Shown: piece after piece, positions 1,877-46,563 of the stretch
Layout: each line of letters starts with the position of its first letter
Position numbering within the stretch: the stretch's first letter is position 1
Assembly: GCA_013115145.1 (NCBI GenBank)
Contig: JAAPAO010000196.1
Location: forward strand, 1 to 54,467
DNA: 54,467 bases
Direction of reading: 5' to 3'
From: Perkinsus chesapeaki
Lineage: Eukaryota; Perkinsozoa; Perkinsida; Perkinsidae
Notes under the pieces: model-generated
What the model was told of the DNA's origin: nothing
What the model saw: the letters and a program-made list of their open reading frames with translations, nothing else
Database searches by the model: none
Made by a program: the position numbers and the translations under genes

Positions 1877-2329
1877 GAATGGAGATGGTAAGCTTACTTG
1901 ATTGTGCTGTGGTTGAAGGCCCTTGCAGCGAGAGACGCCGTATCCTGGTCGGCGTACACACGAACTCGAAACGTGCAGCCTTTTCCCTGCTGCAGCTGCA
2001 TTAGTTACTGTAAGTCTCTGCGGCCTTCAACCTTTGTCCTGCTCCTGTTGGATACCAATCTATACTGCCCTGCTTATCAGCTGACCGTAAGGCGGCTTAT
2101 ATCCGATCTCCTCAACTTATCCTGCATTTGGTGCGCGGCCCAAGTGAATCTTCTAGTTTGTACTCGCTAGAGCTAACCTTATGCGTCCGTCGCGGAGGTT
2201 CCTCCACCTTGAATTCTTCGGCCCTTCATAAGGCTCCGACTGTAGAGTTTACTAGCGGACATTGAAGCACTCATGTTACGCGCACCATATTCATCAATCG
2301 GATACAGGTTATATAACAGCATACTATTC

Positions 2330-2352
2330 GAGATTCTCGAATCGAGAATCTC
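2330..2352. repeat. Perfect 23-nt palindrome
   Basis: Two 11-nt arms (left arm GAGATTCTCGA, right arm its reverse complement) flank one central base. It sits in the gene-free stretch 1877-3230, where I see no other supported gene. It could form a hairpin or cruciform. Confidence 0.85.
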
Positions 2353-2870
2353 TTACGCTATATGATATGTGGGGCAACCCTCTGGACTTACTATTCTATA
2401 CGCCAATGGGCATCTTCGAATTTGAGTCAAATGATGTTAAGATCTGCTTCACGCATGTGCCCGTGAGGTATTGATCCTCGTTTCAGTGTACTGTCGGGCG
2501 CAGGTTCCATAATAGCCGACTGAACGAGCTCCTAGTTTTTCCAACAATATTAGCTTTCCATTATTAGCTCTGACTGAAGCTGTTTTGAGCTACGATCATC
2601 GTGGTATGCGCTTGCTAAGTAGGAGCGTCGTTGAATACACGAGGAAAGACATAACGGTGAGTTTTCCATTTCATCAGGGTGATAGCGTCATTGGAAGGAT
2701 TGCAAGAGTAAGCTGATTAGAGCGATGCCTCTCTTGCTAATCATTTGATGACCTTTGCAGATCAGCGTACGCCAGTCTACATCCCTAATTTTGCGTACAA
2801 TGCATGCTCTTAATCTACTCTACGTAACTGAACCAGATTCTCGGCGTGAGGAGAGTGGCGGGGAGTAATG

Positions 2871-2953
2871 TTTTCCGTTTAAACTCGGAGTCTAAAACTG
2901 CATATTTTTTCATACTATTTTCCGTTTAAACTAGGAGTCTGAAACCGCTTATT
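2871..2953. repeat. Two-copy direct repeat, period 47
   Basis: A unit of about 35 nt beginning TTTTCCGTTTAAACT occurs at about 2871 and again at about 2918 with a few mismatches. No gene overlaps it. Confidence 0.8.
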
Positions 2954-3272
2954 CAGATAGATTACGTGGCACATCTGTCGCTCGGCATACGATTCTACGC
3001 GCGATCTTAATGCTAAACGAAGCTTTTATCCTCATATGCGCCAGCCGTAATATCTAAAGGCACCATTCCAACGATATACCGACTGCTTCATCAGCAGACT
3101 GCTGACAGCAGTGCCTGCCTCTCCAGCCTTGTTAGGTTCACAGTATCTTCACAGGGCGACTGTGCGAATTGACCTCTTTACTTTATACGACTAACTCTAT
3201 GACTGTTACGCTCCGCCCCTGCGTACGCGTGCAATGTGCTCTGCAAAGCCCGGCATATTTTCTATCCATCTC

Positions 3273-22271: not shown

Positions 22272-23715
22272 AGTGACAGGAAGGATACAGCAGCGACTGA
22301 AGACTTAACGTGAAGACTGGACCAAAACAAACTCGAGTTGATACTATTAGTTTGATTTCGATCTATCAATTTAACATAATATTAGAGGAATAATTTCAAT
22401 CGGAAATGCAGCAAGTGGCCATAGAGGTAGCAACGGTATAGCAAGCGACAATGGGATCAATAAATTTGGAACTCTGAGTTTGGGAATACAGATGAGGCCA
22501 TCAAAGCGGACGAAGGCAAACAGGGTCGAGCGAATGCAATACGCAGTTAGATCAGGAAACACGCAGACGCAGAAACAAAGCGGCTATTGGGCCCGATTGG
22601 TTCGGGAGAGTGAATTGTTGTGGCAAATTTAATACACTATGAGGATTATTGAGGCGTCAAATAGAAGTGCGTAGTTCGGGGATCGAAAATGGGCCCTAGT
22701 GCGGCAATACACGGAATGTTGAGACCAAAGCCAGCATTAATACTTCTATCGATGTTATTGTCACTGGGAGCAGCGGTGCATTTACGGTACTGAACTCAAG
22801 CGTGCCGATGAAGGCTGTATAAATAGGTACCAATATGCCCTACGACAGACACTCAGGTGAACAAGCAGCTCATGAGGTAATGCAGAGAAGGTGCAGCACC
22901 AGTACCACAGTAGTAGGAAGTGACGAATAGGGGTTAATGAGTTAACCTGAGTTAAATACCGATGCGCAGGGACGCGCCGTAAGCGCACGCGATTGTGTCG
23001 GAGACGCGAAATCTGAAACGGTGGGCGCCCCGCGTGGGGGTGCCTCAACCCTGAGGTCACGGTGAGACTTAAAGGTGTGGCGCAGGCCTAGTTGTTGTTA
23101 TTTTACCCCATCCCTCCACTCCCGGGAAGCAAGCAGTAAAGGACGGGGCATCGACATTTCGCGGCTATTGCGTAGCCCGCATACTCACGGAGTGTCGATG
23201 AGGTTTCGCGGCTCGGGTGCCGCCGATATCCTCAAAGCCCTTCCTTTAAGTGCTTTAGGGCCGGATCCGCATCCGCGTCCGCCCCTCAGACCCGCGCGAC
23301 CCGGAGTGGGATATTTAACGTTATCGTTTTTACGGCGAGCGCGTATAATCCTTCGCTGATTAAAAGCCAAGTGCGCAGGTTCGATTCCTGGGGCCTCCGG
23401 TTTGAGTCAAAATAGGTATTTGAGATCACATGAGTTGAGTTGATAATAATCTGACCCTCTTATCGACTCCAATGGGTCCCCCATACAAGGCATCGACTGG
23501 CAATCATTATATCCAATCTGTCACTATGTTTTGGGTTCATGTCAATGACCACGTTGGAACGGGGAATATTACAGCAGGAGTGAGCTTATGGGTTTGGCAG
23601 TTCGGGTACGGCACACCGACGAGCTTTGTCCAATCGCTGCTCATGGATGGTAATTCGTTCGAAGTAGCCCGGTTTTATAAATGACTTTGTACATCGCCTC
23701 ATCCTGCTACTGCCA
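22272..23715. other. Divergent intergenic region with tRNA-like box
   Basis: This region separates the s​ortilin start (minus) from the giant gene start (plus). A perfect pol III B-box (GGTTCGATTCC) occurs at 23378-23388 followed by a CCTGG/GGCCTCC tail like a tRNA 3' end, but no matching 5' acceptor strand or D-arm is seen upstream. That suggests a tRNA-derived repeat fragment. A short frame at 23472-23684 has no support. No other gene is seen; any shared promoter would lie here. Confidence 0.5.
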
Positions 23716-26700
23716 ATGCTAACCCTACTCCCATTCACTTTACTGGCATCAGCTCTGACATCCCGGTCGGCTCATGGAGATTGGACAGATAACACTTGTG
23801 GTAGTGTTATGAGATGTCAATGAATCAGACTCAAGTTTGCGTCGGGCTCGGCGACACCCAGTGCCCTTAGTTTTCACCATAGAAATTCACACTTCCGAGC
23901 CGCACCAATATATTTTTAAATGTAGAATTGTTAAATGGATAACTGTTCTGCGCCAAATTCACATGTTTGATAATATAGTTGTCAAGTGGCGTCAAAGATC
24001 GTTGTCAGGAATTTACCCGCCGAGGCCGGTCGACACTCGCTTCCCACCAGACCCTCCGTTAGCTCCAGTATTAGAATCGTCTTGGCCTAGAGAGATAGAG
24101 TCAACAGCTCGGCCGGTTGTGGTGACACTTCTCGGCATGTACTTCGACGATTGGATAGATTTGCTTGTCTGCAAGATGAGCGATGGGCGCCGCATTCCAG
24201 CTGTTGTTGTGAACGAGTCTGCGACAGAATGCAAGCTTCCGTTTACGGGGAGCTCTCGCGCTCGAGAGATCTGGCTCGGCCTGGAAACCACTTCGACACC
24301 TACGTACCGCACAGGCCAAATTGCCATCCTTGTTCGGCAAGCGGCTGACTATAGGACAGCTACACCTCGACATGCATCAACGCGGGGATCGGGCAAGATC
24401 TTCATAACTGGGGTTAATTTCCCTGTCAAGGCTGCTAATATTGAACCGGTGCCTATATGTGAATTTGGGGACCGCGGATTCACTGAAGTGGAGTTCGTTA
24501 GCGACACTCAAGCTTGGTGCGCTGTGCCACCTACTAGCTCTTCTGGTAAGTCTCCTCTAGGCTCGTTCTCATTTGCGTTTCGGGTCGAGGGGTGTCGTTA
24601 TATGGAATATATGTCGACACGTGTTGTGGTGCAGGTTCGGTGACTCTATGGATAGGATCGAAGCTTGTGCCAGGCAACGCTCGAGAGTTCGGCTTTACGT
24701 AAGTTCGGTGGCTCGTCTTTGCAGCGTGGGAGCACGTTTTACGCTGTATAAGCTCATGGCTGTGTGGTCTAGTGGTATGATTCTCGCTTAGGGTGCGAGA
24801 GGTCCCGAGTTCAATTCTCGGCACAGCCCTTTCCAAGGGGGCCCTGTATTGCTTCTCTTCCTGATTCAGGTACTGGAGTGAAGGATACATAGATGCACTC
24901 TATCCAAACCACTATCCATGGTCGATCGGACGAGGCTCAGCGTGGATCCTTGTGGTGAGGATCCATTTCAACCCGCTCGCTAACTAACCTTGTCTAGGTC
25001 GGTCAAGATTTCCCACACACGTATCCTCCCCTCGATTGCTCCTTCTATACCGGCGTGCAGCGTGCTATGAAAACAGTCATCATGAACTCGACACATGCTA
25101 AGATGCAGCTGCGGTCTCCAGGGTATCCGAGGGTCAAGGTCAGCTCTCCTGGGATAGCATCGTCTTGGCAGATTCTCGGTCGTCATTAGCAGTATTGAAC
25201 TTCGCTGCTGGGAGTCCAACGAGCTTGTCCTGTCGGAGAGTGTTAGTCAGCCGACCTTTGCGTGGACTACAGGACCGGCTATCGAGAGAGTCCTACCAAG
25301 TGAGTTGAGCCTTAGTCTGTGAAGATTAGTTCGCGTTGTTTCTTTTTAGGTACTGTCGTATTTGAGAGCCGTATAACCGTAACCGTTATTGGGAAGAATA
25401 TTTCCGCATCACAGGCGTTGTCCTGCATGTTCGACGGAAGGTCGTTTGCCCAACTTTTTAGCATTTAACAAGTCTGTCAGATACATCGTGGAAGCCATTT
25501 ACTTGAACTCATCAGCCTGTGGGTGTCAGTTGCCAGACGGGGTTGGATCTAGGCCTGGCTATGGCCGAGGGACTATCACAATTTCACTTGATAAGGTACA
25601 TTGTACGCTCCCTCCAGATAAGCTCATGCTGTGTCGTTAAATAATATTATCGGCTGTCCTTCACTCATCCCGTTCTCCGGTATAATAGAGTATCACAGAC
25701 CCTTAGTCCAGTCGAAGTTAGCTTATGGCACTTATTTCGTCCACGACGGTCACATTGAACAATACTCACCACGATCCGCCCGATAACCTATTCCTGCTGG
25801 CGGCTAAGTCTTTCTACTCACGAGATTCAGTAGACCCGACCAAATTCCCAAGCTGCTGTCGAAGCCTGACCTACACGATCCCCTAATGTAGGTGCATTGG
25901 GCGCCACCGGTGGACATCAAGATAGAGTATGAATCTGTGTTCCCGGCAGAGCCTGATGAACCAGAACCTGTTTGGCCTCCGGTAGTCGCAGACAATGCTG
26001 CTATCTTGCGCATGTCGGTGTGCTAAACTCAGACCCCGAAGATCGTACGACCTCCTTATAACCAAACGAGCTCCAACATAACAGGATTGCGAATGTACAA
26101 GGCGAACGCAGTGGCTGTAAATCTGCCGGCAACTCGCACCAACTCGACTGCAATTCTGCCGATGCTGTACAGCAGCTTCTTCATCGGCATCAGTGACTAT
26201 CCAGTAACACGGTGCGAACCTTCTATGGGACTGATAGACGGCAATTTGACGGTACATCTACACACGTCCAGCCGAAGCGGCTTTCCCGGCAGGGTTAGCT
26301 CGTTAATAGTTTGTCGGTTCGGAAGTGTCGTTGTTCCTGGGCGGTGGAACATGACTCATAGAACGATTGATTGTGAGACTCCGCAGGTTCAAACTGCTGG
26401 GGCATACCGTCTACAGGTGAGCGAGGTAGTGCCGCTGCGAAATTGGACGGTTTCGATTGCTCAGGTCAGTATGGATGCCGGCTTAACCTTTTCACCGGTT
26501 ACCGACACTACGGCTACATTTTATTATCACCGCTTCCCTGAATTCAGTCTAATTTACCCTCCGCTCGGGTCTGTGGTTGGCGGAGGCCAGGTGACGGTGT
26601 CGGGGAGGTACTTCCCCACCGCTTCCTCGACAGTGATATGCCGCTGGAACGAGACGGTCGTTGTCCTGGGTCATCTGGTCAGCGATACCACACTGCGATG

Positions 26701-29700
26701 TGGCGTGCCATCGAAGTTCAGACTGCTTCCGTTTTCTAATATAGAAGATGAAGAAGCCGCAACATCCCTCGAGTTGGAAGTGTCGTTTTCGAGAGCCCCA
26801 GCAGCCTTCTATGGGGTGCACACTTCAACGGAATTCCGTCAGCACGGATTGATATCGGCGAGAGAAGCGAATTATCTGTTATCGCCAAGACAAACATTGG
26901 CTTCGTTAGGAGGGGCTAACGTTACCGTCAGAGGAACGAACTTTGTTGTTGGACTACCAAGCGACTTCACTCTCTGCCGGTAGGGCCTGGTGGATTTTGT
27001 GGTATTTTAGAGTCGCTATCGTCTAGTGGTTAGGACGTCACGTTGTGGCCGTGACAACCCCGGTTCAAATCCGGGTAGCGACTATTTATTCCGATGTATT
27101 AAATTCTCAGATTCGGTGCTGTAGAGGTAGCAGCCCACGTAATTAACTCTACGACGTTGAGGTGCATCGCACCTTCCCTGGCAGAGGTACCTCAACCATG
27201 AAACGCCGCTGCCAGTCGCTCCACATCAGGTCGATGCTGCCGCTGTAGCTCCCGCGGATGTATTGATACAATTGTCCTTCGATCTCGGCAATAGCTACTC
27301 TCCTATCCGAGTAAACCAAACCTACATAAAGTTCGTACATAAAGTCGATCCTCAGGCGGCTTTCACTTACGTTGAAGATTTCATAGTGGACACTTTGTCG
27401 CCCGACATGGCCGTTTCAGAGGGCGGAACGCTCATCCTCATACTTGGCAGCAGATTTACGGACTCGCCATCCCTTGGATGTCGCTTCGGAAACGAGACAG
27501 TACCAGCAACATTTGTATCATCCCAGGTCGGCTCTAGGTTACCGGCCACCCCGTTCTACCGAATTGTTCAGGTTATGCAATGCACCACGCCTCCACTGCC
27601 TGTTGGAGTGCATCCCTTCGAGATGACGCTGGATGGTGTACAGTATTTCTCAACTGGCAAGAGCATCACGACCCTTCCGCCCTCGACGCTGTTGAGTGTT
27701 TATCCTCGTCGAGGGTACTTTAGCGGAGGCACAGAGGTTCTTGTTAATGGTAGGCTCGTTGATCTCGTTCTGGAGTTAATGTCCTTGTGGCTCAGGCACT
27801 AACCTTGTGGACTCTGTGCTGCTCCAGTGCCAATTTGGACAGTCCTCATTGGCAGCAAAAGACTGGCATGATGAGGAGCATGTGACATGCACCGTCCCGC
27901 CGTGCGATTCTGCAATGGGGGGTCAAGCGCGTGGTGAGCAATGCGAGGGAACCGTGCAGGTAGGGCGCAACTCGGTGCCACCCAGAACAGTGGGCAGTGG
28001 CGGCGCGTGAACTTTTCAGGTGATGCTATCATTCAATGGTCTCGATTTCTTTGGCAATCTTACCTACGAATATGTAAGACGCCAAAGGATCGTCGATATT
28101 CTACCGTTCCCTGCGGGGAGATGGGATCAACCCATGAATGTGACGCTGATGGGCGTGGGCTTCAGTCCGCCGGTTTACTGCCGGTGGCTTCACCTGCCAG
28201 TCGTGCTGGCCTTGGAAGTGACCACGAGGTGCATCTAGAAGCGTGATATTCTTCAGTCAGGTTGGCGTCTCGATGGACCCGTCATCATCAGCCGACTCCT
28301 ATGCTATTTGCACGGCCCCTGTGTTACCTGAAAGCCAAAGGGTGGTCGGTGGTATGGAAACTGAAGGGGTGCTCGGGTAAGTTAATCCCGGTGAGCTGCC
28401 TGACCAGAGTTCTCCGTTTCCCGAGGCTGATCTTCTTGATCGCTCTTCAAGGTACGTTGAGGTCTCTGCCAATAGCATCGACTTCACCAGCGACCGAACC
28501 CAGTGGTACTTTTACTCCCCACCGACCGTTGAAGAAGTCACACCGTCTCGGGTAAGTGCCCCTCCCTCGGCTCTGACGTATGCTTCTCATAGGTTTGGCA
28601 CAGCCTGTCCCTTCAAGGCAGTCTGATGGTGCATGGCAGCCATTTCAGAGCCATCGTCCCGGGCGAGGTCACCTGCAAATGGTGGTACGTCACTTCATCA
28701 GCCTCGATGCCGAGTCTTAGATCCCTGCCAGTTGACACAATCCTCAGGTACGACTCCGATCGCCAAGCCCCAGAAGTTGTTTCCGCCTACTACCTGTCTC
28801 GAAATGTTCTGCGCTGCAAGCCTGCGAGCCCGCCGGTGATGCCGTCTGATCAGAGAATTACATTTGACGTTCGGGTTGAGGTTGGACTTACCCCCGAGGT
28901 CTACTCTACCTCTAATAAGACCATTCTGGTGGGCGTGCTTCTATCAAGGGTCGACCAAGACCGAGGGTGTTGCAGGCAACCAGCCGTCCTCATGTGGACG
29001 AAGTCGTCCAGGAATCAGGGCCTTTCCTCGGTGGCAATGTCCTCACTCTCCACGGCACTGGACTTTGGTATTCCCAACCGACGGACAAGGTACGTCTTAG
29101 GTTGACTCCTGTCTTAACATTCATGTGCCTCCAGGACCGACCTCCGGCGGACGTGCTCTACGTCATTATCGGTGACACCCCTGTGATGGCTCGGCCTACG
29201 TCCGTTAATGGCACCACTGCGACCATACGCCTCCCTGCAGTGCCACACTTTACAGGCTCGCCTGCTAAGTTCGACATCAGCCTCACACATAACCTACAGG
29301 CAAGCGAGAGATAAATCAATACGAAGTCACTTCCTGCATTCCGCACTGCGTAACCTGTGCAACCTTCATACTCGCTCAGACTCGCGATATTAGTCAATGC
29401 ACTCTCGCACTCCGGTGGAGGACTGAATGGAGAGTCGCGGGAATCTTAATAAGACCTTTAAATGGGATAATCGACTTTAGATTCTTTCAATGCTTCTCTT
29501 GTCTATTTTTTTGCTAAGTGTCGGAGGTTCACTCTGTTTTGACTGAAGACCTCTTTTTCAATGCCAGTGCCTTTATGAGACACCCTATAGACTATTACTC
29601 ACACTTGTTGCCTGTCAGGACCGCCTCTTCACCGGTCTGCTAGCGTTCGGTGAGACGCAGAGAGAAGTCCTGAAGGAGTAAGGCACCAATTCTGTTGATT

Positions 29701-32700
29701 CGTTACCACGGCCTCTTTGCTAGGTACGAGTACCTGGACGTGCCCATTGGACAGTTCTATCGCCCGGAGATCCACTCAGATGGTGTTGCTAGGAAGTGTC
29801 CGCGCGGTCACTACTGCCGTGGGGGTTACGCCAGAAATCTCACCAAGTCCCTGACTGCACCACAGTAAGGTGTTGACATCAGTCATTTGTTGAACTACTC
29901 GAAGAGACACTCGCAGCCGAGCGTTTCCTTGATTCCACTTTGGCGAGGAAATATGTCTGTGATGAGGATATTGGCGCACTTGGCCTTCGTAGTGAAGTTG
30001 CGGAGCAGCTCCATTGGAGTTCACTTACGCTCCGAATGTTGCGTGGAATCCGGTCGTTTAATTTCACTGTTTAATGAGCAGAAGCGATACAGCCAATCCG
30101 CACTGGCAAGATATCAATACTACTCTTCAATGTCATATCTTCCAAGTGTTTTACTCTGCCTGTTTGTCACGCAGCGCGGCTAATAAAGCGCATAACAGAA
30201 ACCTTGGTACCTTTTTCATCGTCTCGTTGATATCCCCATGTGATAAGGGTATCCAAAGTGTGCAAATCTGTTCGAGTTCCGCTTATTTGTAAATGTCCTG
30301 AGTGATGATATTCCTCCTTCCAGATTCGCTGCTCCGTGTTCATCGGGCTACTACCAAAACAACACTGGTAACTGGACATGTGATATCTGCCCAGCAGGCT
30401 CGTGGTGCGGCACCAACGCTGCCATCGCTCCAAGTAAATGCCCAGATGGGTAGGTGCTGCCGTGGATAGAATTGCGGTTATTGAATTGCTTATTCGGTCA
30501 GTTACGTCTGCTGGGGCAACAAGGGCTACGGTCAGGACGTCCCTCTGTGCCCTCAGGGCCTCATCTGTGTAGAATCTGTGGCGACTGCCCGCCCGACTCG
30601 GGTAAGCGAGGCGAACCGTCCAGCTATCACTCCCGCCTGGTGTAGGTCAAAGCCTCCACGAGGAGGCTTCGATTACGGCGCCCGCCGCCCCGTAAGCTGG
30701 CGGAGCTCCCAACTGCAGTGGAGACCATCGACTGCCCGCCGGGCTACTACTGCCCGCCTGGCAGTCTAGCGACGCGGACGGAAGATGGCACTATTGTGAT
30801 GGCAGACGATGTGATGAGCATCTCTGAATTTCCTGGCGCGTGACGATTGCTTGTAGGTGCCTGCTTGTTCCATCCCTGGGATTGTTTGCTCTGAGGGCTC
30901 GGCTGCGCCTCTGGCTGTCGACACTCCTGTTGAGGAAGGCTTTTACGTTAGTGAAGATGGCAGTCAGTTGCTGCCTTGCGTTCCTGGGTAAGGTGACTCC
31001 GCTTGCCGAGAGATAAAAATAATTACGCCACAGTGTTGCATCTGTTTCATACGAGTGCACTTGATTATGTTCCGAGAGGGGACAGTTTTGTGTGCTGCTG
31101 TTGAACACCACTGATAAAGCCAGAATTCACGATGAGAGCAGCTGCAGATTTACAGTATTATGTTTAGATGATTTATTTTTATCTTGACCCTATGGTTGTT
31201 TGTTAGGAGATCAAAGCCAGTCTTGTATTGTTTGCCATCTATTGGAATACTATTGGTTCGGCTTAACTCTTGGCTATCACCATCAGGTTCTCCTGCTCGA
31301 CTACAAGGTCAGGTGGTGGGTATCCCGAGCCTTGCCCTCCTGGGACATACCAGGTCTCACCGGGAAGCTCTCTTTGCAGTACCTGCACTGCCGGTGAGAA
31401 CATCACGGCCTAGTTGGCAATCGTACTGATTCGAGACATTCCTTTGGTTGTGGAACTTGCCAGGATCTTTGTCTGTCCTTCCTGTCTTTGCTACTTATAC
31501 TAGTACCATACATCTTGCTATCACCAGTATACTAGACTTCACCTCTATGTTCAGCGGCCCTGGAAGATTATTCGCCTTATGTGTCGGCTTGACAGACCTT
31601 TGCAATCTTCGTAGAGCATGAGTCGCCGGATTCATCCTCACAGTGCCCCTTCGCTATCGTGGGGAACTACTGCTCAGTAGTAGTGCAGTAGCACTGCACT
31701 ATTGCCGCCGCTGTCTTGCTATCGTCATTTGAAGTCTGGATTCCTGCATTCTTCATTATGTGCTGCCCCCCCACCTTTTTTCAGGGACGATGTGCTCTTC
31801 TGAGGGATCGGCCCTCCCTAGCTTGTGTCCAGCTGGGCGGGTATGTGCCCATGCCGGTCGAGCTCAGCCAAGCTACATGTGCCCGGCTGGAAGCTACTGC
31901 CTTCCGGGAGTATTCACTTTGAACACCTTAGCAGGCGTCGACCCGTTGTAAGTGAATCGATGGACTGCTTGTACGAATACAGTCTGGTACGTGCTTGGTC
32001 AGATATCTTCCAACTATATGCGGCAATGGTACGTATTGCATGCCCGGCACTACCACAAATGTTGTCGACGACCTGGACCCAACAGCTCCTCGGAAATGCG
32101 TGGAGGGGTGCGCTGCTTTAATCTCGATTCTAAACAGGTTGGCTTTGGTCAGGTACTTCTGTCAGGCTAACGAGACGACTTACAGAGGTCAGGGAGAGTG
32201 CCCTATCGGCCATTATTGTGTCCGAGCTAGTCTAGAGCCAGTGCTGGCTCCTAAAGGGTGAGCCTCGAATGCAGGGACGTGTCCAAAATAAGAGAGACAT
32301 TGTTGATAACCTCTCAATAGCATTAACTGTAATAATATCAATATCTGATTATATTTCGAATAGTATAAATAATAATATTAACCGTATCCAGTACTTATGG
32401 TAACCATGAAGAGCTTGCTTCCGTGAGGAACTGTGCGAGCATAGGCTCATACTTGCCTTGGCGTATTCCTGAAGAATATATAATATATAATAATACAGTT
32501 TTACCCAAAGCATATGCGAAAGCCAGCGGAGACGGAAGCTCATACTTCACATAGCAGGATGTGTGTTTTCTGAGTGAAGGTCCAGTGGTATTCCTGAGCA
32601 TTATCTAAACTGCTTTTGATGCTCCTCTGAGGTATCCTAGCGATGTCATCCTCAGATACTATGTTGACTACACTGGTGCGTATACACCATCAAGGTGCAA

Positions 32701-35700
32701 GCCGGGGACGTACCAAGATGAAATAGGTCAGACCAGATGCAAGCCTTGTCCGGACGGCCACGAATGCACGTTTGATGGTACGAGGCTGCAATACGTTGAC
32801 ATGCATTGGCTTATCGGCTGAGCATTGGGATGGCCTTATCAAAATGCACTGGTTGGTGCTGGAAGATGCGCACAAAAAAGAGCGGGCCGAGTTCCGTCAA
32901 TTTCACTTCCTCCCCCATAACACATTCTATTGTGTATTATATTATTAATAGTTTACTATTACGCTATTAGTTACCCGGTAAAGCAAGGTTTGGCTTCAGG
33001 AACATGGAAACCTGTTCCGTGCCGGCCGGGAACGTACCGGTCCATAGGAGATCCGAGCTTCACCGAAGAATCCAATATCTTCTGTCATCCCTGTCCCCAA
33101 GGAACTTGGAATTTCCGAGGGCAACTTACAAGCGAGCTCATGTGTGAGAATTGTCCTAGTCGGTAAGACTGCTGCAACGGTGGCGAAGCAGTTAAATACT
33201 AATGAATGGATATGGTCAGGGGGTCGTGGAGGAACACCGAAAGAGTTCCAAGAGAGAATCTTTTTCGTGTTACCTTGTGCTCTAGGAATTTTTTGACTAA
33301 AATTTGTATTATGTATTCGCAAGATGCTCATCATTTTTATCATTCTCCATTGAGCCATAGGATGTCTGTATATGTCACATGTCTGTCAACATTCATCTGT
33401 CACATTCACATGTCTGTATATGATACCCATACTATGTTCACAACACAGCTCCCCTTTGATAGCAGATCTGTGATAGGTTTTCAGCAGAGGTTTGGATTCA
33501 TTAGTCGCCTTAACCTTGGCCCCGGCCTCTCTCTCTTGGGGGGTCTCTATTGGGTATAGCGCAGCGGTAGCCCACAGTAGCATTTGAGGGGCCGCACTTG
33601 TTAGCTTCGCTTCAACTGGACTGGCAATATGCTTCAAAACACAACTCCGAACTGTTGATACTGTATTCGACGAATGCTTGCAGGTACGTGTGCGCAAGAG
33701 AGGGTCTTACAGTGTTCGCCACCAAGGAGCAGACCGACTGCACCCCAGATGAAAATGTGCCGCAGCTTGGATTGTGGCAGCCTCATTATGATGGCTTATT
33801 TGTGTTAGGGTGTTGCGCTGTGCTATCAGCTGTCGCAGGCTAATGACTGTCCGGAGGGTTATGCTTGTGGAGACTCTACAACTGCTTATACACGGTAAGC
33901 TAGGGGACATCCTGACTCAGGATGATCCTGATAGATATAGAATAATAATATAGTGTATCATAAATATTCATGGGGGCCCACACAAGACGTTGTGAACCTC
34001 TTTGTGGTCCAGCAGATGGCTGATGAACGCCAGCTGATTGGCTGGATGCTTAATACTTCCACAATATTTAATACCTCACCCCGGCGTAGGGCCTGGGGCT
34101 CCAATTTCGGATACCAACGGGTAACACAACGTTACAGACTCAGGCTGAGTCGCAGAAGAGAGTCGTATATTGCCAAGAGGAATATATTCCGGGCCTCCCC
34201 TCCACTATTACCATATTTTCTGTAAAGTTCTCCATCACACAATATCTTGAAGGTAACTTTCTGATCGCAGAGCAGCATATTTCACATTCCTGAATGAACC
34301 TCTGATACTCGTTCTTCTCTGCTTCAGTGACTGGTAACGTGCTACTGTGTGTAGGTATGACTACCCTTGCGAGCCTGGGTATTACTGCAAGTCATTGACG
34401 GCACTGAACGAGATGAGATACCTCCTCTGCCCGGCCGGCCACTACTGCAAGCACGCCACAGGAGCGAGTAAGAAAACTGCCAACACTTGTCCGACAAACT
34501 GGTAAGCGATCCTTCTGCTGTGGTGCGAAATGTGGACAGGTACTGTCCCGAAGGGACCAGCGGTCTGGATGTGACGAACGGCACCGGGGTTGTCCTCGAC
34601 TTGAAGAATGTGCAATCGTGGGTTGTCCTCGACGAAGAAGGGAATAGCGTGGCCAAGTAGGACGAGTTTTCCAAGGATGTCGAAGGCGACCTGAACAGAT
34701 ACGTGCAGCAGATTGATGCCAAGACGGGGGCAGTTTGTAAGCGTTGTAGCGATGAGACATTTGTAAGTTGAAAGTCGTCCCAAATAATCTGTAATTTCTT
34801 GTATGTAGATTCCTCCCTCTGCTGTGGACGCCACTGAATGTCTGCCGTGCGGTGTACCGGAGGTTGTGGGCGAGGATGAGCTTTGGGTGCCTAATGAGGA
34901 ATGGGCTAGCCTTAAGTGCCCTGAAGGTGAGCTACTACAGGGTGATGCGAAAAAAAGGGCCCATGCCTCATATTTTTTTGGCGCGTGGGAGTTGCGAGTG
35001 AAGTAAGGTACCAACTTGAAGCTTTTGTAATGCCTCATCAACCGAGGTGATATTCGAACTAGACTCTGAGTAATGGTTGAACAAAAAATCGCTAGATAGA
35101 GAAATGTGCTGGTAAAACTGAATAGGAAGTGTTTGGTAAGGTACTTCGTCGATATGGAAATCAAGCAAACCCGACGACTGCAAGCAAATCGGCGTGGTGA
35201 TCGCCGTTGTGAACCTGTAAGCTTACAGCATCTGGCGTTCCCCAGTCTTCTGCCAGGTATGCTAACCAGACCGTTACGTATCCCTCTACAGGGGAGGAAG
35301 TGCGACTGTGGGATCCTGAAAGGGAGCTTAAATGGATAGATGACGCCTCGAACGAGTATCAAGCTAAAACGACATACCGGTGAGAACGTTTTCCGCCTGT
35401 GGTGCACGAGGGACATCTCCGACTTCAACTTTTTCCCTTCCGAAAATTAGGATTCAGTACTTACGTTGCCCTGCAAGTTTGGTCACTTTGCGTCGTTATA
35501 GTTCGTCGAAAAAGGTACTAGCGAGTCGTTCATTACAAATAGTGTAGTCGTGAAAGTCGATCTTCTTGAGGCTTCTAGTTTCAATACTCGACAATGCAAC
35601 GTGAGTTTCGGCTGCAGCAGAAGCCTCAGATACGGTCAACCGATCAGCGATGATGATGATACCCTGGTCGAGTTCATCGGCTTCGATGAGCGCAAAGATA

Positions 35701-38700
35701 CTGACAGGAATATCTTTCATTTCACCAACCTCCGACTACGTGCCTTCGAAATTGTAACAAGGCGTCTTGTGGGGATGATGCCAATTATTCAGGCGCACGT
35801 CTACTTGGAGTTTTCCAAGATAGTATCTGGCACGAGACTCAGCACACGACGGAGCAGCGGTCATTATGATATCGTTATTACCTCTAATAAACTAGGACCT
35901 TTACAGCAGAAGACAGGCTATGACCTCCCCTATCATTTGGAGGAAAGTGACGGAGTAGACCGCCTGGGTCTACTGCTCTCGCTCGCTCTCTCGCGCCGTC
36001 GTTGTTGTTATCACACTTGCGCGTCTAGTATTATTTACGGAGTGACTCTGATGTGGAGGTCGCATATTGGTAGACAACTAAGGGACAAGGCAATGCGGGA
36101 ATTTCAATAATAAAATATGATAGTCTGAATTGATAAAATGATCAGATCTGAACTTCCTGATCATTTCTTTTATATTCAACTGTACTTGCTTGAAGAGTGG
36201 CTATATCCTTGATTATTCTGGTATCTACACTCGCTTGTTCCGTCAAGCTTGTGTCAGCTGTCTCGTTTGTATCGGCATATATGCTGTCGAAGGCCAGGAG
36301 AATCATTGCCTTGCCGTTCTGATCTGCTGAACTTTCCCTGCCGAGAGGATAGTGAGGGACTCTGTTATTTCAGGAGCTGTTCTACGACTTCGAGCTCAAG
36401 CTACTGGCCCTGGAGGAGGACGTCGTGTTCAATATATCTCTCAACTTGTTGCATGGAAGCCACTTGAAAAACCTACACTTCTTCAATGAGACAGTTACCA
36501 TGAAGATAATGCGGCCCAACAGAGCAGATTGGGGTAGGACAGTTACCTGCCTGCAAGGTCTGAAAACTCGACCGGCTTCACGATACGCATAAGCGTGATA
36601 CTTCCGCCTCTGATCAGACTTCTGAGATACCGCATCCAAGTGATATTCAATCCCGACCGCAAATGTCGTTTATTCTTACGTGGAACAGCACGTGGTTCCG
36701 CTGAGATGGTCCCCGCTTTCGGCACTGTGTACTCCATATGGCGATTCGGAGAGGGCATTATTGAGCCCAACTGAGGATGACTGTCGCACATTTACACACC
36801 GAGCTTTCAGAAACAGAAAACATTTCAACACGCCTGGTCACAACTCTCGTTTCCTCAGGCCAGCCGAAAACATTCCTGGCGATCTTGAACAGGGAATTGC
36901 TTAGTGGTAAAGGATTTGAGCTGCCGTAAGTGCAAACGAACTCTCAATTAGTCCTTGTTGAATGCCTGCTGGTTTGGTCTTTAATTGCAATTATATGTCA
37001 CCTTACGTTGTGCGTAATAATGTAACAAAACTGGATTATACCGAGGACTTGTCTGTCGTAATGACAGTGCAAGATTGCACCATGATCTGGTCTCTGGTGT
37101 AGGTATAACATGCCTCCAGGATTGGCCGACACTCCCGGGGATCCAAGCATGGTTGTGGATATGGCCAACGAGAAAGATATCACCGAGGATCGAACCAAAG
37201 CCAGCACACAGATGCCTGGAGGTCAGCAGCTTTAGCCATTCCCGCCATCGGAGATGGAGGAACACTCAATAACACAGGAACCAATTTGATGCTCCATTAT
37301 TTCACTAATAACTCACTTTCTATAGCATATCCGTACTACCAACGCACTTTGAGCAGCCTTGGGAAAGGCCCTTGCATGCCTTCACGCCTTCAGCTCATCG
37401 GCTTCGGTGTCGGTCCCGGAGCTGGCCATGATGCTACAAGGCTAAGTTTGATCACTTCAACGTTTTTAACTACTGGCGTATAGTTCCGCGATTGTCCCTT
37501 CTATCCTGTACAAGGCTAGCGCGTAGAGAACTAGTTTTCCTCTTTCGTCTCTCAGTCGAGTAGCCACTTCTGGTGTTAAGGTTGACTAATAGTAACCATC
37601 GCCTTCAAAGCTCGAACCTGGCAGGTACATTCTGGAACGTTATGCAAGTCGAGACCGTGGCACTTCCGTGGTTGCCGTTTTTCTCCAGCTGCGACTACTT
37701 CGACAGTCATATTGTTATTTGGGACCTGCTTGAAAATCCCGACAAACCCGCTGAAGCTGGAAGCTGCAAGATACCTAACAAGGAGGATGTTAAACCGGTG
37801 AGTCACAGCTAACGAATCCGCGAGTCGGACCTTCCCGCGTAAGCAGCTTCGCTGACCGAATAACGTTTTCCATTGGCCTGGTCTTTCCTATTTCCATGAA
37901 GGTTTATGAAACTTTTTCGGACATACAATAAACTTGCCCAAAGTGTAATTAGCTATTTTATAACCTTGAGTGATTGGGAGTTGCTCTGAACTCTTCATCA
38001 TTCTTACATCCAGCTTCAACCTCACTGACTCACTCCTGTTTTCCAGGTCCCTCCGTTGTTTATAGACCTATCTACCTTGGAGGTCACAATGGAGGCCAAC
38101 TCGGACGAATGCAGCCTAACCATCACATGCCGCTATGAGGACCCCATGACCAATCATCTCAATACACCGTGGATGTCTGTACGTTATCGCGATGCACGGT
38201 CAAACTGCTCAAGAGTATTTCGAACAGATCGACGAGGAGACCAAACTCTTCTACTTGACGCGGGACCCGAGGACGTACGAAGATTACGCTCGAGGAGCGG
38301 ATTTATTCGACTCGCTCGTTGGCACTGACAACTTGGTCGGAGTCGGCTTCGAATCCGGCGAACGCGAAGGTGACTGAAGCTGAGTTACGGGCTGTGATTG
38401 ATTTGACTTAGGCGATTACCCCCGCAGTGTCAGCTTCAGTATCGCCTATATGCAAGAGGGTACCGACTATAAGAAGATCGTTGAGGCCGGTAAGTGGCAT
38501 CCGAGGACCCCCATGTCCACACAGGGTTTTAGGAATGGCGGTTGATGATTTTGATGACGATTTCCGCCGGCTCGACTACAACCTGACAATCGAATACAAA
38601 CCAATGGTCTGGTCTGAGCTCATGAACGCCTTCCAGCTCCCTCTGTCGGTGTAGGTCTGTCTTGTGTCACTTCTGTCCCCTATTTTGCATACAGTTACTG

Positions 38701-41700
38701 CGTTCTTTTCGCTCTCATCGGTGCAGCTGCAGTGGTGGTCACTTGGCTATCTTGGGTAGTTATGCGCATCGGCGTCAAGCGGGTTCAGGTAGTGCTTTCT
38801 CTATACTGTGGAATTTTTCGCAATCGCATCCATCTATACATCTTTCCTTCAGTCCCCGCGCTTCCAGTTAGCCGAGTGCTTCGAGTTCATGCTGCTTTGG
38901 CCCATACAAGGGGTTTGTATTGCGTCCTTGCTTGTCGTGGTAAGGTCGTCTAACCTCTGAGGAGATGACTTCGAGCTCTCTCCTCCCAGGTGCTCTCAAT
39001 TATCATAAAGCTTTCCTTCACGGACTTCGCAGATCCATTCCAGGTAGGCTTCCTTTCACCAACTCCTCGGCAGCACGGCGTTGTGGTAGGATATCGGTTG
39101 CTCCTGGCCACAAGCAGTTGGGACGAGTGGTGCCGCTGAAGAGATGGACACGGAGACCTGCAAGCAAGCTCGAATGGGTAACTCGATGATCTCGAGTCAT
39201 CACTCGTAGGCTTTGGTAGGCGAATGCTTTCTCTTGGCTGGGCTTATGATGCTCTGGTCGGGATCGAAGCTGATGGTACCGCGGCTCCGGGATGTAGAAG
39301 TTAAGTTTTTAATGCAGCGCAAGACTGAAGATTTGCATCAGGAAGTGAGCAAGCGCAACCTCTACTGTGTTTGGCGTATCCGGCACTGAGCGCATTGAAC
39401 TCGCCCACACAAATGAGCTGTTTTCTCTCTAGCACCCTTTTGCTAGTACCTTTAAGTGATCTATCAAGCACTTACATGGCCCTTAAGGAACTCTTCAATG
39501 GGGGCGTGCATTCTCATGTGAAGGGCGTGTCTCTCTATGGCGCTCTGACTCCTTGGCCCAATATTTCTCTTCGACTGGAGAGTAGATATATCTCGTGCTG
39601 CTAGTAAGGCATTGGTCTGATAATATTATTTCTGGTGCCCTTCCGGAGGCTTTCCCTGTAGGGCATTCCTATTCCAGCGTCCCGCTCGAAGGCATCCAAG
39701 ATCACAGGCTTACCAGTGAAGTGGAAACGATTTCACCTTCTTTGGTGTTCAGTTTTGCTGGTCTTGGCGTTGATGGTGATGATGGAGTTCTCGTAAGTCC
39801 CACTCCTGTAAATGATGGTAGCAGGCCTCTGAGAAATCTCTAGGGTGCGGTATTGGTATCTTAGGTCGCAGCGAGGCCAACTTCTTCAAAAGTTCCAATT
39901 GGTGCATTAATCGCATTTCGAATCGAACGTATCGTTAGAATCCTATCTCGCAATCTCTAATGGAGGGCGGGGCTGAAAGATAGCTCGGGTTGTTGCGGAA
40001 TAAATTAGGCTCTAGTTGTCAGTCTTTCGTTCGATGAGCAGAATCGTACGGCGCGATATAAAATAAGCGAATGGCGCTCGCCTCAAGCCTATGCCTCCTC
40101 AATGTCTTGCAGGTATTCTGATTTCTTCGGCACATATACCGTTAACTTCATCATCGGCTTCACCTTTATGATGATGGCAGCGGAGGCTGTCTTTGCTCGA
40201 GCTGTCCGCGAAACCCTCCTGCTCATCCCGCTGCTCGCGGCCTGCGAAGTGGTAGGTGTCATCTGCTTATTATACAGCATTGCTGTAACAGCAATGCTTC
40301 TTAGTAGGTCTTGTTCATCGCCACCATGGGAGCCGATAACTTCCAGGACTTCGCCGAATCTTTCTTCGTGGAGCTTCTTCTCAAGATTGCCGATCGCCTA
40401 GTGTTCGGCTCGGTGTTTCAGTGGATCGACTACTATGCAGCTGCCACTATCGAGTTCCTCAGTAAGCAATCAGCGGTTCATTGCTTATCACCCACGGAAA
40501 CAATCCGCATCTACTAGGGACGCGATCATTCCTGTGGACCGCGCTGCTCGCCATTGGCGGGCCTAGACGCGGAAAGGCTAACGCCACTAAAGATGGAGAT
40601 GACATCGGGCGGCAAGTACCGGGCCTGAAGTTTGCTAGCCGTGCGAAAAAACTTCCTGAGGGTGAGTCGAGATTGCCGTGACTGGGCCCTTTCTATTGGC
40701 TTCTATTAGCGTCAACTGCGGCACCCGCTGAGAAGACAGTTCCTGAAAAGCACGACCAAGGACATGGACATCCGAGTGCTATCGAGGAGGCAATCGAGGA
40801 GCATGTCAGGGGTGGCAGCACTGCGATGAGTAAGCCACGGAAAAGAGTACACAACACGCTCCTAAATACGAACATTGTCAGTAGTTTCTTAGACCATGAC
40901 AATATTGGGCGAGCGAGCTTTTTAAATGCGCCTTCGCCACAGCTTTAGTGCCAAATGTTCCCTTTGTTAGGCAGATGGGTTCCCAAAAAGCGGAGCTAGC
41001 TTTTAATTGTTGAGTCTTCACTTGTGGATTGTTCTTTAACTCCACAGGCATCGCTTAGAATAGTTGGTGGCATCGACAGTTTGGCCGAGTGGTCTAAGGC
41101 GCTGGCTTAAGGCGCCAGTCCGAAAGGGCGTGGGTTCGAACCCCACAGCTGTCATTTGCTTCTTGCGCTTCCTCGTTTATCGAGCATATCTGTGTCCCGT
41201 GGGTGCAAGACCCACGGTGGTGTGTCGGCGGTGTTTTATGCGTCCTACTGCCTTCAGGTACTATTCTGGCTCCCATGGTTATCGCCTTTATAATCGCATT
41301 CCCAACTGCCACTGAAGTTCCTCAACAGTACGACATCCGCAACGGAGATTTAATGTGAGCACGCTCGACTGGCATGCCCCCCGCCTATCACAAGGCCTTT
41401 CCTGCTTACTGCAGGAAACTCTGCTCGTGTGCGAGCTTTATGCCATAAAGCCTTGCAGTACAGATAACTACTATTTTGGTTCTGAACCTGAACAGTTCGG
41501 TTTGTGAAGACCTTCGGTCATTTTGGGAAGGTTGAGCTCGTTCACAGTTTGATGAAAAGCTGTCACTGAAATTGGCGTTACTGTAACGTGACCCTGCCTC
41601 ACTAGTTCGGCAAGGCTATTCTGTCTGATGATTCTTGTTGTTGCTGATGATGCACCGCCACTGTGTAGTTACTATATGTTGTTTGGTGTTGTCATCGTCC

Positions 41701-43598: not shown

Positions 43599-43713
43599 CG
43601 GTTGTACTTTAATAATTTACCTTGAGTTAGTCAAGACGTACGGTTGTACTTTAATAATTTACCTTGAGTTAGTCAAGACGTACGGTTGTACTTTAATAAT
43701 TTACCTTGAGTTA
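43599..43713. repeat. 42-bp tandem repeat, at least 2.7 copies
   Basis: Units beginning CGGTTGTACTTTAATAATTT start at 43599, 43641 and 43683 and are identical as far as they can be read. The third runs into an assembly gap. The DNA after the gap starts with a partial, diverged match (TTAGTCGAGAC), so the true copy number is unknown. Confidence 0.95.
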
Positions 43714-44140: not shown

Positions 44141-44181
44141 AAATTATTAAAGTACAACCGTACGTCTTGACTAACTCAAGG
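44141..44181. repeat. Inverted 41-nt copy of the 42-bp repeat unit
   Basis: This stretch is an exact reverse complement of 41 nt of the tandem array at 43599-43713 (it contains GTACAACCGTACGTCTTGAC). It lies about 96 bp upstream of the start of the 761-residue gene. I see no gene between 43561 and 44277. Confidence 0.93.
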
Positions 44182-44277: not shown

Positions 44278-46563
44278 ATGAGTGCAGTTCCCACCGTCGA
44301 AGATCTCTTAGTAGATCCGGAATCTATGAGAATAAAGTCCGGCGAGCGGTATGTCCAGTTGGTCGGAGTTCTCGGTCAAACCCCCGGCCCCCTGACGCCC
44401 CTGCCCATCATCACTGCGGTACTCGACGTCGACCTCGTCGATGCTGAAGCATGCGTTCCGCCCACCCCCGAGGAGAAAGCAGCCGTCTCAGGCACGGTTC
44501 TGTGCACGAGTTGCATACTCCGCCCCAGAGAGAGCTCGAGCTCAGCGGTATGGGTTTTGCATCTCGAACGGTCTGATGTGCCGATCGCCTTCAAAGGAAC
44601 TAGCAACATCATTAATCGCCATTGCCTCTGCCCTGGTGCACCGGTGGAGGTTGTCGGGTCTCTCAAACGGGGCTCAGCTCCGATTGGAGGCCGCCGCCAG
44701 GAGATTCAGTTGGCTGAGTCCGAGGTGGTGATTCACCGGCTTGGGGAAGGTCACAAAGGTACAACGATTAAGATCGGCTTCGTGCTATCTGGTGGTGCCG
44801 TCCTGGGCGTTCACAATGACACTGAGCTTGTTCTAGTCTGCCTCCATCAATGGTGCCGCTGCCAGAGCGAAGTCTTATGTCCAAGGATGGTTATTGAATG
44901 TTTCGGGTTTACTGAGGTCTCCAGCGTTGCTAAGCCCATATCGAAGATACTTGTCGCCAACATTCATTCGGCGGTCATCGTCAAATGTGCCAGCGACGTT
45001 TCTCCGAGGCAAAATAAGTTGGAGCCGCTTTACAAAGCGGTCAAGGGTCTGCCGTCCGCCGTTTATGAGGGCTGTCCACTCCACACAGTAAGGGATTTGT
45101 GCCGCCACCTGGATCCACGCCTCCAGTCCGAAGCCGAACGCTGCAAGCCGTGCTCCAACCCTACGGCGGTCTTGGGTTACGCAGGCATACTGAAGCAGCC
45201 TGTAGGCTGTCCCAAAGTGTGTGATGATGCTTTCGTAACGTTCAATGATCTACCATTGTGTTGGTACCGTCAGATCTTCGAATGTGCCAGAACGGTGTTC
45301 CCTGCTCAACCTCTGAGTGTCGTCCGTGCGCCTCCATTTGATGCATTGGGAGTCTACAACCTTGCCAGTGACCTGCCTTGTCACGATGCTCTTGGTGTTC
45401 ACGTTGGCGGTCCCGTGGTTGTTTCTGGTCGTGACGCAGCCGATGCTATTACTGAAGAGAGAGGAGTGGTCGTGCGCTGCGCAAAAGGTGTCTGTTATTT
45501 CCAGTCTCCTGATGGGAGTCTGGGGCATATCAAAGGGGATCCTCGCCCAGCGTTGTCTGTCATAGGGAAGCTGTCTGATCGTGAAGAGAAGCTTGCACTG
45601 TGCCATGCGGCGTCACTGCATCCTCTGCTTCACTCTGTTGAGGAAGTTTCCCGCATGCCTCCATCTTCCCCTTTCACGCTGAAAGCTGCCATAGTGTGTG
45701 AGGTTATCCATAGAAAGCTATCAAGGTCCCCTGATGTGTTGCTCGCCGATGTCAACGCAGAGGGTTGGGATTTGACGATTCAGGACGTAGCACCGACTGG
45801 GAGGCTGCTTAGAGTCTGGGTCTCGAAGACCCAGCTCCGACGGGATATTCCTGTGCCCTCACTCGTTGACATATCAGATGCCATCACGCTCGACAGCGAC
45901 TACCTACCAGAGCGTCACAGTTCGGCGGCGTTCCGTCCGGTCTTTGCTGTGGTGCTGCCAACAGGTTTTTTGGACTTACGCTGGCCTCGACTACCTCTGA
46001 ATATGTTCCCGCATGCATCACCGACAAGCTTCTGGATGGCCGGAAGGGTATCGTGGTTGCGGGAGATCAGTGCTCATGCTGTTTGCAAGAACTGTGGTGA
46101 CAAAATATATCTCCTTTCCGCTTGCACTTGTGGGAAGACTCGTTTACTTTCGCCAGCGGATGCTGCTTTGGACGGCCTCGATGTTGTGCTGACTGCTAAG
46201 GGTCAAATAACTAGTCGCACGAGCTTTCACGTTGAGGCGTCGTTTGTAGACCAGGCGGCACTCAGTGTCTCCACCGACTGCAGCTTAACAACGTCGCAGC
46301 TCGATGGCGTCAAGCGGTACATAATCGCCGATGGTGGCGGAACTACTATTCTTGCTACGAAGGAGACACAAGAGTCGAAATGGGTCTCTCACTACCTGGG
46401 CATCAAGTACCCACAGCTTGTCACGGGGACGTACTGCTTTCGTGGAGAGCATCGTGAAGAGGGGCTCTACATCCACCACGCTAGACGTCTAGGAGGGTCT
46501 CGCGATGACGTCTATGCTAAGCTGAACAAGAAGGTTTTCTGCAACTTGGAGATGATTGATTGA
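44278..46563 (+). CDS. 761-residue intronless protein, OB-fold/zinc-ribbon character
   Basis: A single uninterrupted frame, unusual among intron-rich neighbours. No family is recognised with certainty. The N-terminal part (about residues 1-165) alternates beta-like strands with glycines (RYVQLVGVLGQTPG, GAPVEVVGSLKRG, EIQLAESEVVIHRL), as in OB-fold modules. About residues 605-680 hold a CxxC...CxC cluster (CKNCGDKIYLLSACTCGK) in a strand-rich region, like the zinc ribbon inside RPA-type OB folds. Multi-OB proteins with such ribbons include RPA1 and CTC1 of the CST complex, so single-stranded DNA or telomere binding is a hypothesis only. The first ATG is taken; the upstream frame is short. The 3' neighbour is convergent. 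Confidence 0.8.
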   Translation: MSAVPTVEDLLVDPESMRIKSGERYVQLVGVLGQTPGPLTPLPIITAVLDVDLVDAEACVPPTPEEKAAVSGTVLCTSCILRPRESSSSAVWVLHLERSDVPIAFKGTSNIINRHCLCPGAPVEVVGSLKRGSAPIGGRRQEIQLAESEVVIHRLGEGHKGTTIKIGFVLSGGAVLGVHNDTELVLVCLHQWCRCQSEVLCPRMVIECFGFTEVSSVAKPISKILVANIHSAVIVKCASDVSPRQNKLEPLYKAVKGLPSAVYEGCPLHTVRDLCRHLDPRLQSEAERCKPCSNPTAVLGYAGILKQPVGCPKVCDDAFVTFNDLPLCWYRQIFECARTVFPAQPLSVVRAPPFDALGVYNLASDLPCHDALGVHVGGPVVVSGRDAADAITEERGVVVRCAKGVCYFQSPDGSLGHIKGDPRPALSVIGKLSDREEKLALCHAASLHPLLHSVEEVSRMPPSSPFTLKAAIVCEVIHRKLSRSPDVLLADVNAEGWDLTIQDVAPTGRLLRVWVSKTQLRRDIPVPSLVDISDAITLDSDYLPERHSSAAFRPVFAVVLPTGFLDLRWPRLPLNMFPHASPTSFWMAGRVSWLREISAHAVCKNCGDKIYLLSACTCGKTRLLSPADAALDGLDVVLTAKGQITSRTSFHVEASFVDQAALSVSTDCSLTTSQLDGVKRYIIADGGGTTILATKETQESKWVSHYLGIKYPQLVTGTYCFRGEHREEGLYIHHARRLGGSRDDVYAKLNKKVFCNLEMID

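Follow-up and report, generated by a model that had tools for sequence, protein, structure and literature searches.

Perkinsus chesapeaki is a parasite of shellfish. In the current study, we examined a stretch of 54,467 nucleotides of its genome (contig JAAPAO010000196.1, assembly GCA_013115145.1; the whole stretch is hereafter called the window), in which three tRNA genes lie within the predicted introns of one large protein-coding gene:

23526-43555, + strand: large host gene, IPT/TIG and cysteine-rich (PF07699, Ephrin_rec_like), from the HMM model, its domains and homologs P0011 to P0015
24699-24869, + strand: predicted host intron with tRNA-Pro, 171 nt, phase 2, GT-AG
24758-24829, + strand: tRNA-Pro(AGG), called by ARAGORN, RF00005 score 56.9 bits, TTT directly 3′
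26980-27110, + strand: predicted host intron with tRNA-His, 131 nt, phase 2, GT-AG
27011-27084, + strand: tRNA-His(GTG), called by ARAGORN, RF00005 score 61.7 bits, TTT directly 3′
40830-41257, + strand: predicted host intron with tRNA-Leu, 428 nt, phase 1, GT-AG
41075-41154, + strand: tRNA-Leu(AAG), called by ARAGORN, RF00005 score 56.0 bits, TTT directly 3′

The initial annotation had named tRNAs for Pro(AGG), His(GTG) and Leu(AAG), and these are confirmed. ARAGORN called exactly three tRNAs in the window, all on the + strand, and their RF00005 scores (56.0 to 61.7 bits) lie well above the Rfam cut-off of 29 bits. The reversed window yielded none, and the same control applied to 109 sequences gave one false tRNA in each of two, both with long “introns.” Identical copies occur among the sampled loci (15 for Pro, 12 for His and 8 for Leu, the window's own being counted), and whole-genome searches returned 37 matches for Pro, 18 for His and 29 for Leu, the last two counts including the query itself; 8 of the 29 Leu matches were below 80% identity. 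The three are real tRNA genes, beyond chance, and are probably cytosolic.

The host gene model comprises about 75 predicted exons and a product of 3,192 residues free of internal stops. Its ends are uncertain; the N terminus of homolog P0012 is longer, and the 3′ end was set manually at 43555, beyond which the gene finder (a home-made, self-trained, two-strand HMM) continued into the next gene. Scans of exonic ORFs identified a TIG domain (PF01833) in three, and the cysteine-rich part of the protein scored 42.1 bits for PF07699 against a cut-off of 23.1. Forcing a tRNA to lie between genes cost the model 14.5 (Pro), 16.6 (His) or 10.9 (Leu) nats, and forcing it into a minus-strand intron cost 26.6, 33.3 or 31.1 nats, respectively; the same three introns were returned when the tRNAs were left unmasked. 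The window itself was in the training set, so these calls are no independent test of the introns. Homologs align over the joins, although the first is covered weakly: when five selected proteins were searched, P0015 alone aligned across the tRNA-Pro intron join (E of 1e-5). At the tRNA-His join, P0012 and P0013 align across with one-residue gaps nearby, P0011 and P0014 align with an insertion two residues beyond the join, and P0015 aligns weakly; at the tRNA-Leu join, P0011, P0012 and P0013 align gap-free at the join and P0015 again weakly. By its source name, P0012, which aligns over the second and third joins at 35% identity, is a transcript ORF, from another organism.

An initial homology search with a 1,791-residue query gave six matches covering at most 32% of the query, and the full-length query did better. 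Neither search returned a Perkinsus-named protein, so the matches did not include a deposited entry for the host protein, and two pieces of the host protein searched for paralogs outside the window matched only one distant sequence (on C102, 36% identity). The model supports the earlier proposal of a single host gene with the tRNAs in three different introns on its sense strand, and the proposed in-phase joining of the flanking exons is borne out by the intron phases (2, 2 and 1) and the stop-free product. The homologs that align over the joins make it unlikely that the flanking exons are instead parts of separate transcripts. We conclude that each of the three tRNA genes is nested in a predicted intron of one + strand gene.

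To place the trio in context, we scored tRNA genes from elsewhere in the genome. The sample is nonrandom, being drawn from the highest Rfam scores and from the Pro, His, Leu and Gln families. Of the 109 sequences, 102 contributed a total of 127 distinct tRNA rows; copies sharing identical 25-base flanks entered the count a single time, tRNAs truncated by a locus end were skipped, and no row came from L098, where a Gln match sits at the end of a contig. A tRNA in L047 was called by ARAGORN as Thr with an intron, yet it matches the His query. Exclusion of 13 rows lying less than 400 bases from a locus end left 114 scorable genes, 84 of which had contexts covered by the training of the gene finder. 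Within predicted introns lay 100 of the 114 (about 88%), as scored by a gene finder biased toward intron over intergenic sequence (only 5.5% of the window's noncoding bases were called intergenic); the remaining 14 (12.3%) were intergenic, compared with an intergenic share of 12.2% of noncoding bases by the same gene finder. Forty of the intronic genes were sense and 60 antisense (P = 0.057 against one half, no margin filter). When the 27 genes with a margin below 4 nats were excluded, 83 of the remaining 87 were intronic and 4 intergenic, and 35 of the 83 were sense (P = 0.19 against one half). Loci fetched after training contributed 30 scorable tRNAs (13 sense, 16 antisense and 1 intergenic). 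The suggestion that sense nesting is disfavored is therefore unsupported here, nor does it agree with the 56% of intronic tRNA genes reported as sense in the parts of a study of Caenorhabditis elegans considered here (PMC4999229).

Is the trio unusual? A B-box pattern matched the 35.4-Mb assembly 2,432 times and its reversed counterpart 566 times, which leaves about 1,870 matches in excess; we estimate the dispersed tRNA genes of P. chesapeaki at roughly one to three thousand. A stretch of the window's size is then expected to hold 1.5 to 4.5 tRNA genes, and the host gene's 10.45 kb of intron 0.5 to 1.5. For totals of 1,000 to 2,946 tRNA genes, the probability of at least three within the host introns is 0.017 to 0.20; that of at least three, all sense, is 0.001 to 0.012, but the latter figure presupposes a gene chosen beforehand, and the host gene was not so chosen. 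As a cluster, the trio is not beyond chance. Because the genome is crowded with tRNA genes, most examined ones being intronic, the trio looks typical of P. chesapeaki rather than like a special arrangement. Three tRNAs in a single gene were earlier taken to suggest a tolerated or selected arrangement; toleration is supported, whereas selection is not, the count being close to what tRNA density predicts.

On the reading that we hold to be very probably correct, the three are ordinary nuclear tRNA genes whose location in introns is incidental and which pol III transcribes by way of their internal A and B boxes. Pol III would initiate at each of the three copies through the internal boxes, the spliceosome would remove the host introns, and the overlap of pol II and pol III transcription would be tolerated. 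Dispersal would be the cause of the intronic placement; with many dispersed tRNA genes and noncoding DNA that is mostly intron, new copies would mostly survive within introns, persisting there in either orientation. What can be read directly from the sequence is the identity of the tRNAs, their predicted placement in introns, the genome sample, and the common 5′ and 3′ flank signals.

Alternatively, RNase P and RNase Z may free the sense tRNAs from the host intron, whether or not it has been spliced out, in the manner of intronic snoRNAs, with no synthesis by pol III. All three tRNAs of the window are indeed sense and flanked on both sides by intron sequence, and some sense introns are very tight (in L041, 18 nt, the tRNA, and then 7 nt), such that splicing and tRNA cleavage would compete. 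Against this, identical copies (the window's included) are found in other contexts: 4 sense, 10 antisense and 1 intergenic for Pro; 3, 4 and 5 for His; and 4, 4 and 0 for Leu. Dependence on sense host transcription would thus not be needed; all three tRNAs have identical copies in antisense introns, and those of Pro and His also lie between genes, where no host intron could free them. Moreover, the T-rich trailer and an A at −3 are common to both orientations: A at −3 in 27 of 42 sense and 37 of 66 antisense tRNAs (6 of 18 intergenic copies, not significant), and TT within +1 to +3 in 30 of 43 sense and 41 of 66 antisense. Runs of at least four T's in the next 20 nt were more frequent in sense copies (18/34 versus 12/56; P = 0.003), but these extra runs may represent the polypyrimidine tract and not a terminator. 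Release from the intron, offered earlier as an alternative, need not be invoked, and we consider it highly improbable; autonomous pol III transcription would be the simplest mechanism for the nested tRNAs.

It is also conceivable, if highly improbable, that the position of the tRNAs is selected, either because they tune host splicing or expression or because tRNA expression is gated by the host promoter, as reported for sup-7 of C. elegans. According to the portions of the literature considered here, host promoters affect intronic tRNA expression in C. elegans and the host-tRNA pairing is conserved (PMC4999229), and human nuclear intronic mitochondrial-type tRNAs, or nimtRNAs, increase splicing in reporters (PMC7722341). 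In P. chesapeaki, however, placement tracks the intron share of noncoding DNA, and sense copies are not in excess.

The least probable reading is that tRNA insertion into exons made new introns, as introners do, with the T-rich trailer furnishing a polypyrimidine tract (sense) or, reversed, a 5′ splice site (antisense). Many host introns do consist of a tRNA plus 30 to 60 nt (the tRNA-His intron minus its tRNA is 57 nt), the trailer often abuts the splice site, and the residual host introns are shorter than a length-weighted draw (median of 132.5 versus 209 nt; P = 0.0014, n = 70); yet they exceed an unweighted draw (median of about 68 nt), which is what one would expect of insertions into preexisting introns, residuals of at most 60 nt make up 21% (near the weighted expectation of 17%), and, with tRNAs masked, just six locus pairs share sequence at an E of 1e-8. 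Those six, which include tandem copies on C131 and the duplicated region L045/L046, are duplicated regions or short repeats, and we found no intron family common to the tRNA loci at this threshold; on visual comparison, the flanks of intronic copies differ. The residual-length distribution of the 70 host introns led us to reject the tRNA as an intron maker.

Nested tRNA genes are already known, C. elegans being the precedent. As described in the sections of PMC4999229 considered here, a large fraction of its nuclear tRNA genes (44 to 47%, of which 56% are sense) lies in protein-coding introns, sense as well as antisense; this fraction roughly matches what the intron content would predict, and identical copies are found at separate places. 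Our sample differs in degree (about 88% intronic, 40% of those sense). Host-promoter control and conserved pairing were tested in C. elegans (PMC4999229). In Perkinsus marinus, of the same genus, multicopy tRNA genes are targets of Dada transposons (PMC3706591); in the parts of that report considered here, the passages on introns deal with exon prediction and with the introns that transposon genes contain rather than with tRNA genes nested in a host intron. Human nimtRNAs, from the excerpted account in PMC7722341, likewise lie within pre-mRNA introns in either orientation, but they are tRNA-like sequences of mitochondrial derivation and mostly diverged, whereas the window's three have identical genomic copies. 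Among the papers listed by our literature searches, we saw no description of intronic tRNA abundance in Perkinsus.

A pattern noticed post hoc concerns the Pro family. All nine Pro(TGG) genes were sense (one, in L065, with a margin of only 0.8), while Pro(AGG) genes were 4 sense, 10 antisense and 2 intergenic. Heterogeneity of orientation among isoacceptors (P = 0.0008, n = 72) weakened as loci were added (P = 0.004, n = 83; P = 0.008, n = 82, with one tandem paralog removed) and rests on Pro (P = 0.004 for Pro; P = 0.40 without it); we therefore rejected isoacceptor-specific orientation as a general rule. Cryptic splice sites were likewise rejected as a general rule, the actual orientation being the internally weaker one in 34 of 72 cases for acceptors (P = 0.79) and 42 of 72 for donors (P = 0.66). 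The Pro(AGG) anticodon arm contains TTCTCGCTTAG|G, which had at first suggested a reason for its scarce sense copies.

Taken alone, this locus simply exemplifies the nesting of tRNA genes, which is known from nematodes. The added value lies in the surrounding sample, in which 100 of 114 scorable tRNA genes of a protist fall in predicted introns, and in the identical tRNAs found in sense, antisense and intergenic contexts, which amount to a natural experiment in which overlap of pol II and pol III transcription can be compared for one and the same tRNA. One joint reading, tentative and rather doubtful, is that the intron is the default home of tRNA genes, that in the tightest sense case splicing excludes tRNA maturation, and that Pro orientation is tied to the anticodon. 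With 18 nt before the tRNA and 7 nt after it, the branch point would have to lie no further downstream than the tRNA itself, and a given transcript could undergo either splicing or tRNA maturation but not both. If this reading is true, roughly nine in ten P. chesapeaki nuclear tRNA genes would be housed within pol II genes, some sense and some antisense, and an isoacceptor's own sequence would decide which pre-mRNA strand is permitted to it, TGG always being sense.

ARAGORN found three tRNA genes in the window, every one on the + strand, and each is predicted to lie in sense within an intron of the same protein-coding gene:

24758-24829, + strand, tRNA-Pro(AGG) gene; predicted host intron 24699-24869, + strand
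27011-27084, + strand, tRNA-His(GTG) gene; predicted host intron 26980-27110, + strand
41075-41154, + strand, tRNA-Leu(AAG) gene; predicted host intron 40830-41257, + strand

They score 56 to 62 bits against Rfam, and TTT directly follows all three. Folding-only z-scores are -2.2 (Pro), -3.5 (His) and -3.3 (Leu); the minimum-energy fold of tRNA-Leu is a full cloverleaf, and those of tRNA-Pro and tRNA-His are not. A further 3′ tRNA half at 23340-23400 (+ strand), comprising a T-arm and an acceptor-like end (GGTTCGATTCC), has no recognizable 5′ half; a DNA search of the genome found no second copy, and it may be a decayed tRNA.

The introns were called with a two-strand HMM of our own, which combines a coding Markov model, splice-site weights and GT-AG introns and was trained on the window and the loci fetched by then. 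It predicts a host gene of 75 exons on the + strand (23526-43555; the model continued into the following gene at 44315 and was trimmed by hand at 43555). Of the 74 introns, 28 are 42-50 nt long. The product reads through 3,192 residues without a stop and contains IPT/TIG domains and a cysteine-rich part matching PF07699, the family once named GCC2_GCC3. The same three host introns were predicted with tRNA masking on or off, and forcing the tRNAs into intergenic DNA cost 14.5 (Pro), 16.6 (His) and 10.9 (Leu) nats. Alignments to the homologous proteins P0012 (named as a Trinity transcript) and P0013 span the second and third joins, with nearby gaps of at most 1 residue. P0011 aligns ungapped over the third join and over the second with an insertion 2 residues beyond it; P0014 spans the second, insertion included. 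P0015 (21-23% identity) spans all three and is the only homolog, a weak one, aligned over the first, the tRNA-Pro join. The 5′ end of the gene is uncertain, P0012 extending further there.

Just downstream, a 42-base tandem repeat of identical copies (43599-43713) abuts an assembly gap of N, and much of its unit recurs inverted at about 44150-44180. An intron-poor gene then adjoins the host:

44278-46560, + strand, ORF with a protein match

It is 88% identical over the full query length to hypothetical protein FOL47_003156 (Perkinsus chesapeaki); no Pfam match was found, and one source labels a P. marinus relative a CST complex subunit.

The initial annotation took three tRNAs in one gene to suggest a tolerated or selected arrangement; tRNA density speaks against the trio being special. 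The pattern GGTTCRANNCC (B box) has 2,432 matches in the 35.39-Mb, 884-contig assembly to which the window belongs, versus 566 for the reversed pattern. Since 18 of 32 matches in fetched DNA (targeted tRNAs excluded) fell inside ARAGORN tRNAs, and only 73 of 123 tRNAs contain the exact pattern, the genome should hold roughly 1,000 to 3,000 tRNA genes. This predicts 0.5 to 1.5 in the 10.45 kb of host-gene intron and 1.5 to 4.5 per window-sized stretch. The trio is thus not unusual, and the locus is ordinary for this genome. Nor does the premise hold that nesting in sense is disfavoured as a rule: in C. elegans, 44% of 609 tRNA genes are intronic, no different from chance, and 56% of the intronic genes lie in sense (PMC4999229). 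Multicopy tRNA genes of P. marinus have already been published (PMC3706591); among the papers listed in searches that paired Perkinsus with tRNA genes, with tRNAscan-SE or with splice sites, no title or abstract opening describes intronic tRNA genes in that genus.

In a wider sample, 108 loci were fetched around tRNAs, and each tRNA was scored under three forced states: intron on the + strand, intron on the - strand, and intergenic DNA. Of 127 distinct tRNA rows, the 114 lying 400 bases or more from the nearest locus end were counted. Sixty were antisense-intronic, 40 sense-intronic and 14 intergenic; when a margin of 4 nats or more was required (n = 87), the counts were 48, 35 and 4. Loci fetched after training gave 16 antisense, 13 sense and 1 intergenic among 30 scorable tRNAs, and an unmasked rerun returned the identical intron in 75 of 83 intronic cases. 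By the same HMM, 12.3% of tRNAs are intergenic, as against 12.2% of non-coding bases (a base count covering all but the last 20 loci), so tRNA genes are intronic about as often as non-coding DNA is. The sense shortfall was not significant (40/100, P = 0.057; 35/83, P = 0.19).

Identical copies of the window Pro, His and Leu genes occur in introns in either orientation; for Pro and His, some are intergenic as well. Sense and antisense copies alike tend to have A at position -3 and T immediately downstream; intergenic copies have A at -3 in 6/18 (not significant) and TT in 12/18 (significant). Pol III start and stop signals acting independently of the host gene would fit both the copies and their flanks. 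The tRNA may be released from the host intron, though nothing here requires it. At least four T within 20 nt follow 18/34 sense versus 12/56 antisense copies (control windows, 6.8%); the longer runs of sense copies probably also serve as a polypyrimidine tract. The shortest host intron, at locus L041, is 99 nt: 18 nt, the tRNA, and 7 nt to the exon.

All 37 genomic matches to the Pro query were classified (35 intronic, 2 intergenic). Within this family, orientation differs by anticodon: Pro(TGG) was sense in 9/9 (8/8 at a margin of at least 4), Pro(CGG) was sense in 8 and antisense in 4, and of the 16 Pro(AGG) genes 4 were sense, 10 antisense and 2 intergenic. The effect was spotted post hoc and was not seen in the other families pooled. 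The nine Pro(TGG) host genes showed no homology to one another at E 1e-6. Among the Pro genes (L049-L078, L089-L095), T6 of every one of the 16 Pro(AGG) genes pairs with an A in the 3′ acceptor strand, where Pro(TGG) and Pro(CGG) have a mismatched T or C, which also creates a splice-acceptor-like CTCAG or CCCAG; in this comparison the L094 sequence is displaced by one base, and L095 carries additional differences. Cryptic splice sites do not account for tRNA orientation in general.

Several other loci were noted. One is probably a pseudogene:

973-1042 of locus L100, - strand, Gln-like tRNA with anticodon TTA (Rfam 43.5 bits)

Its anticodon would read the stop codon UAA, and 25/200 shuffles fold equally well or better. 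tRNA-Gln(TTG) genes, all called antisense, are spaced regularly at ~4.2 kb on contigs C131 (L010, L012, L096; tandem duplicates) and C358 (L013-L015; no homology among hosts at E 1e-6). tRNA-Arg(TCT) genes cluster on both strands of C440 and C328 (L002, L004, L005, L007-L009, L017, L019), several <1 kb apart. A duplicated region with tRNA-His and tRNA-Phe genes lies on two contigs (L045/L046; identity reaches 93% over 233 bases).

Very probably, then, the window tRNAs are ordinary nuclear tRNA genes with pol III signals of their own, lying in introns; we put it no higher because the first join has a single weak homolog and most scored tRNA contexts belonged to the training set. The original observation of three sense tRNAs in one gene stands, whereas its interpretation survives by about half. 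The part worth following, beyond this single locus, is the genome-wide habit of intronic tRNA genes.
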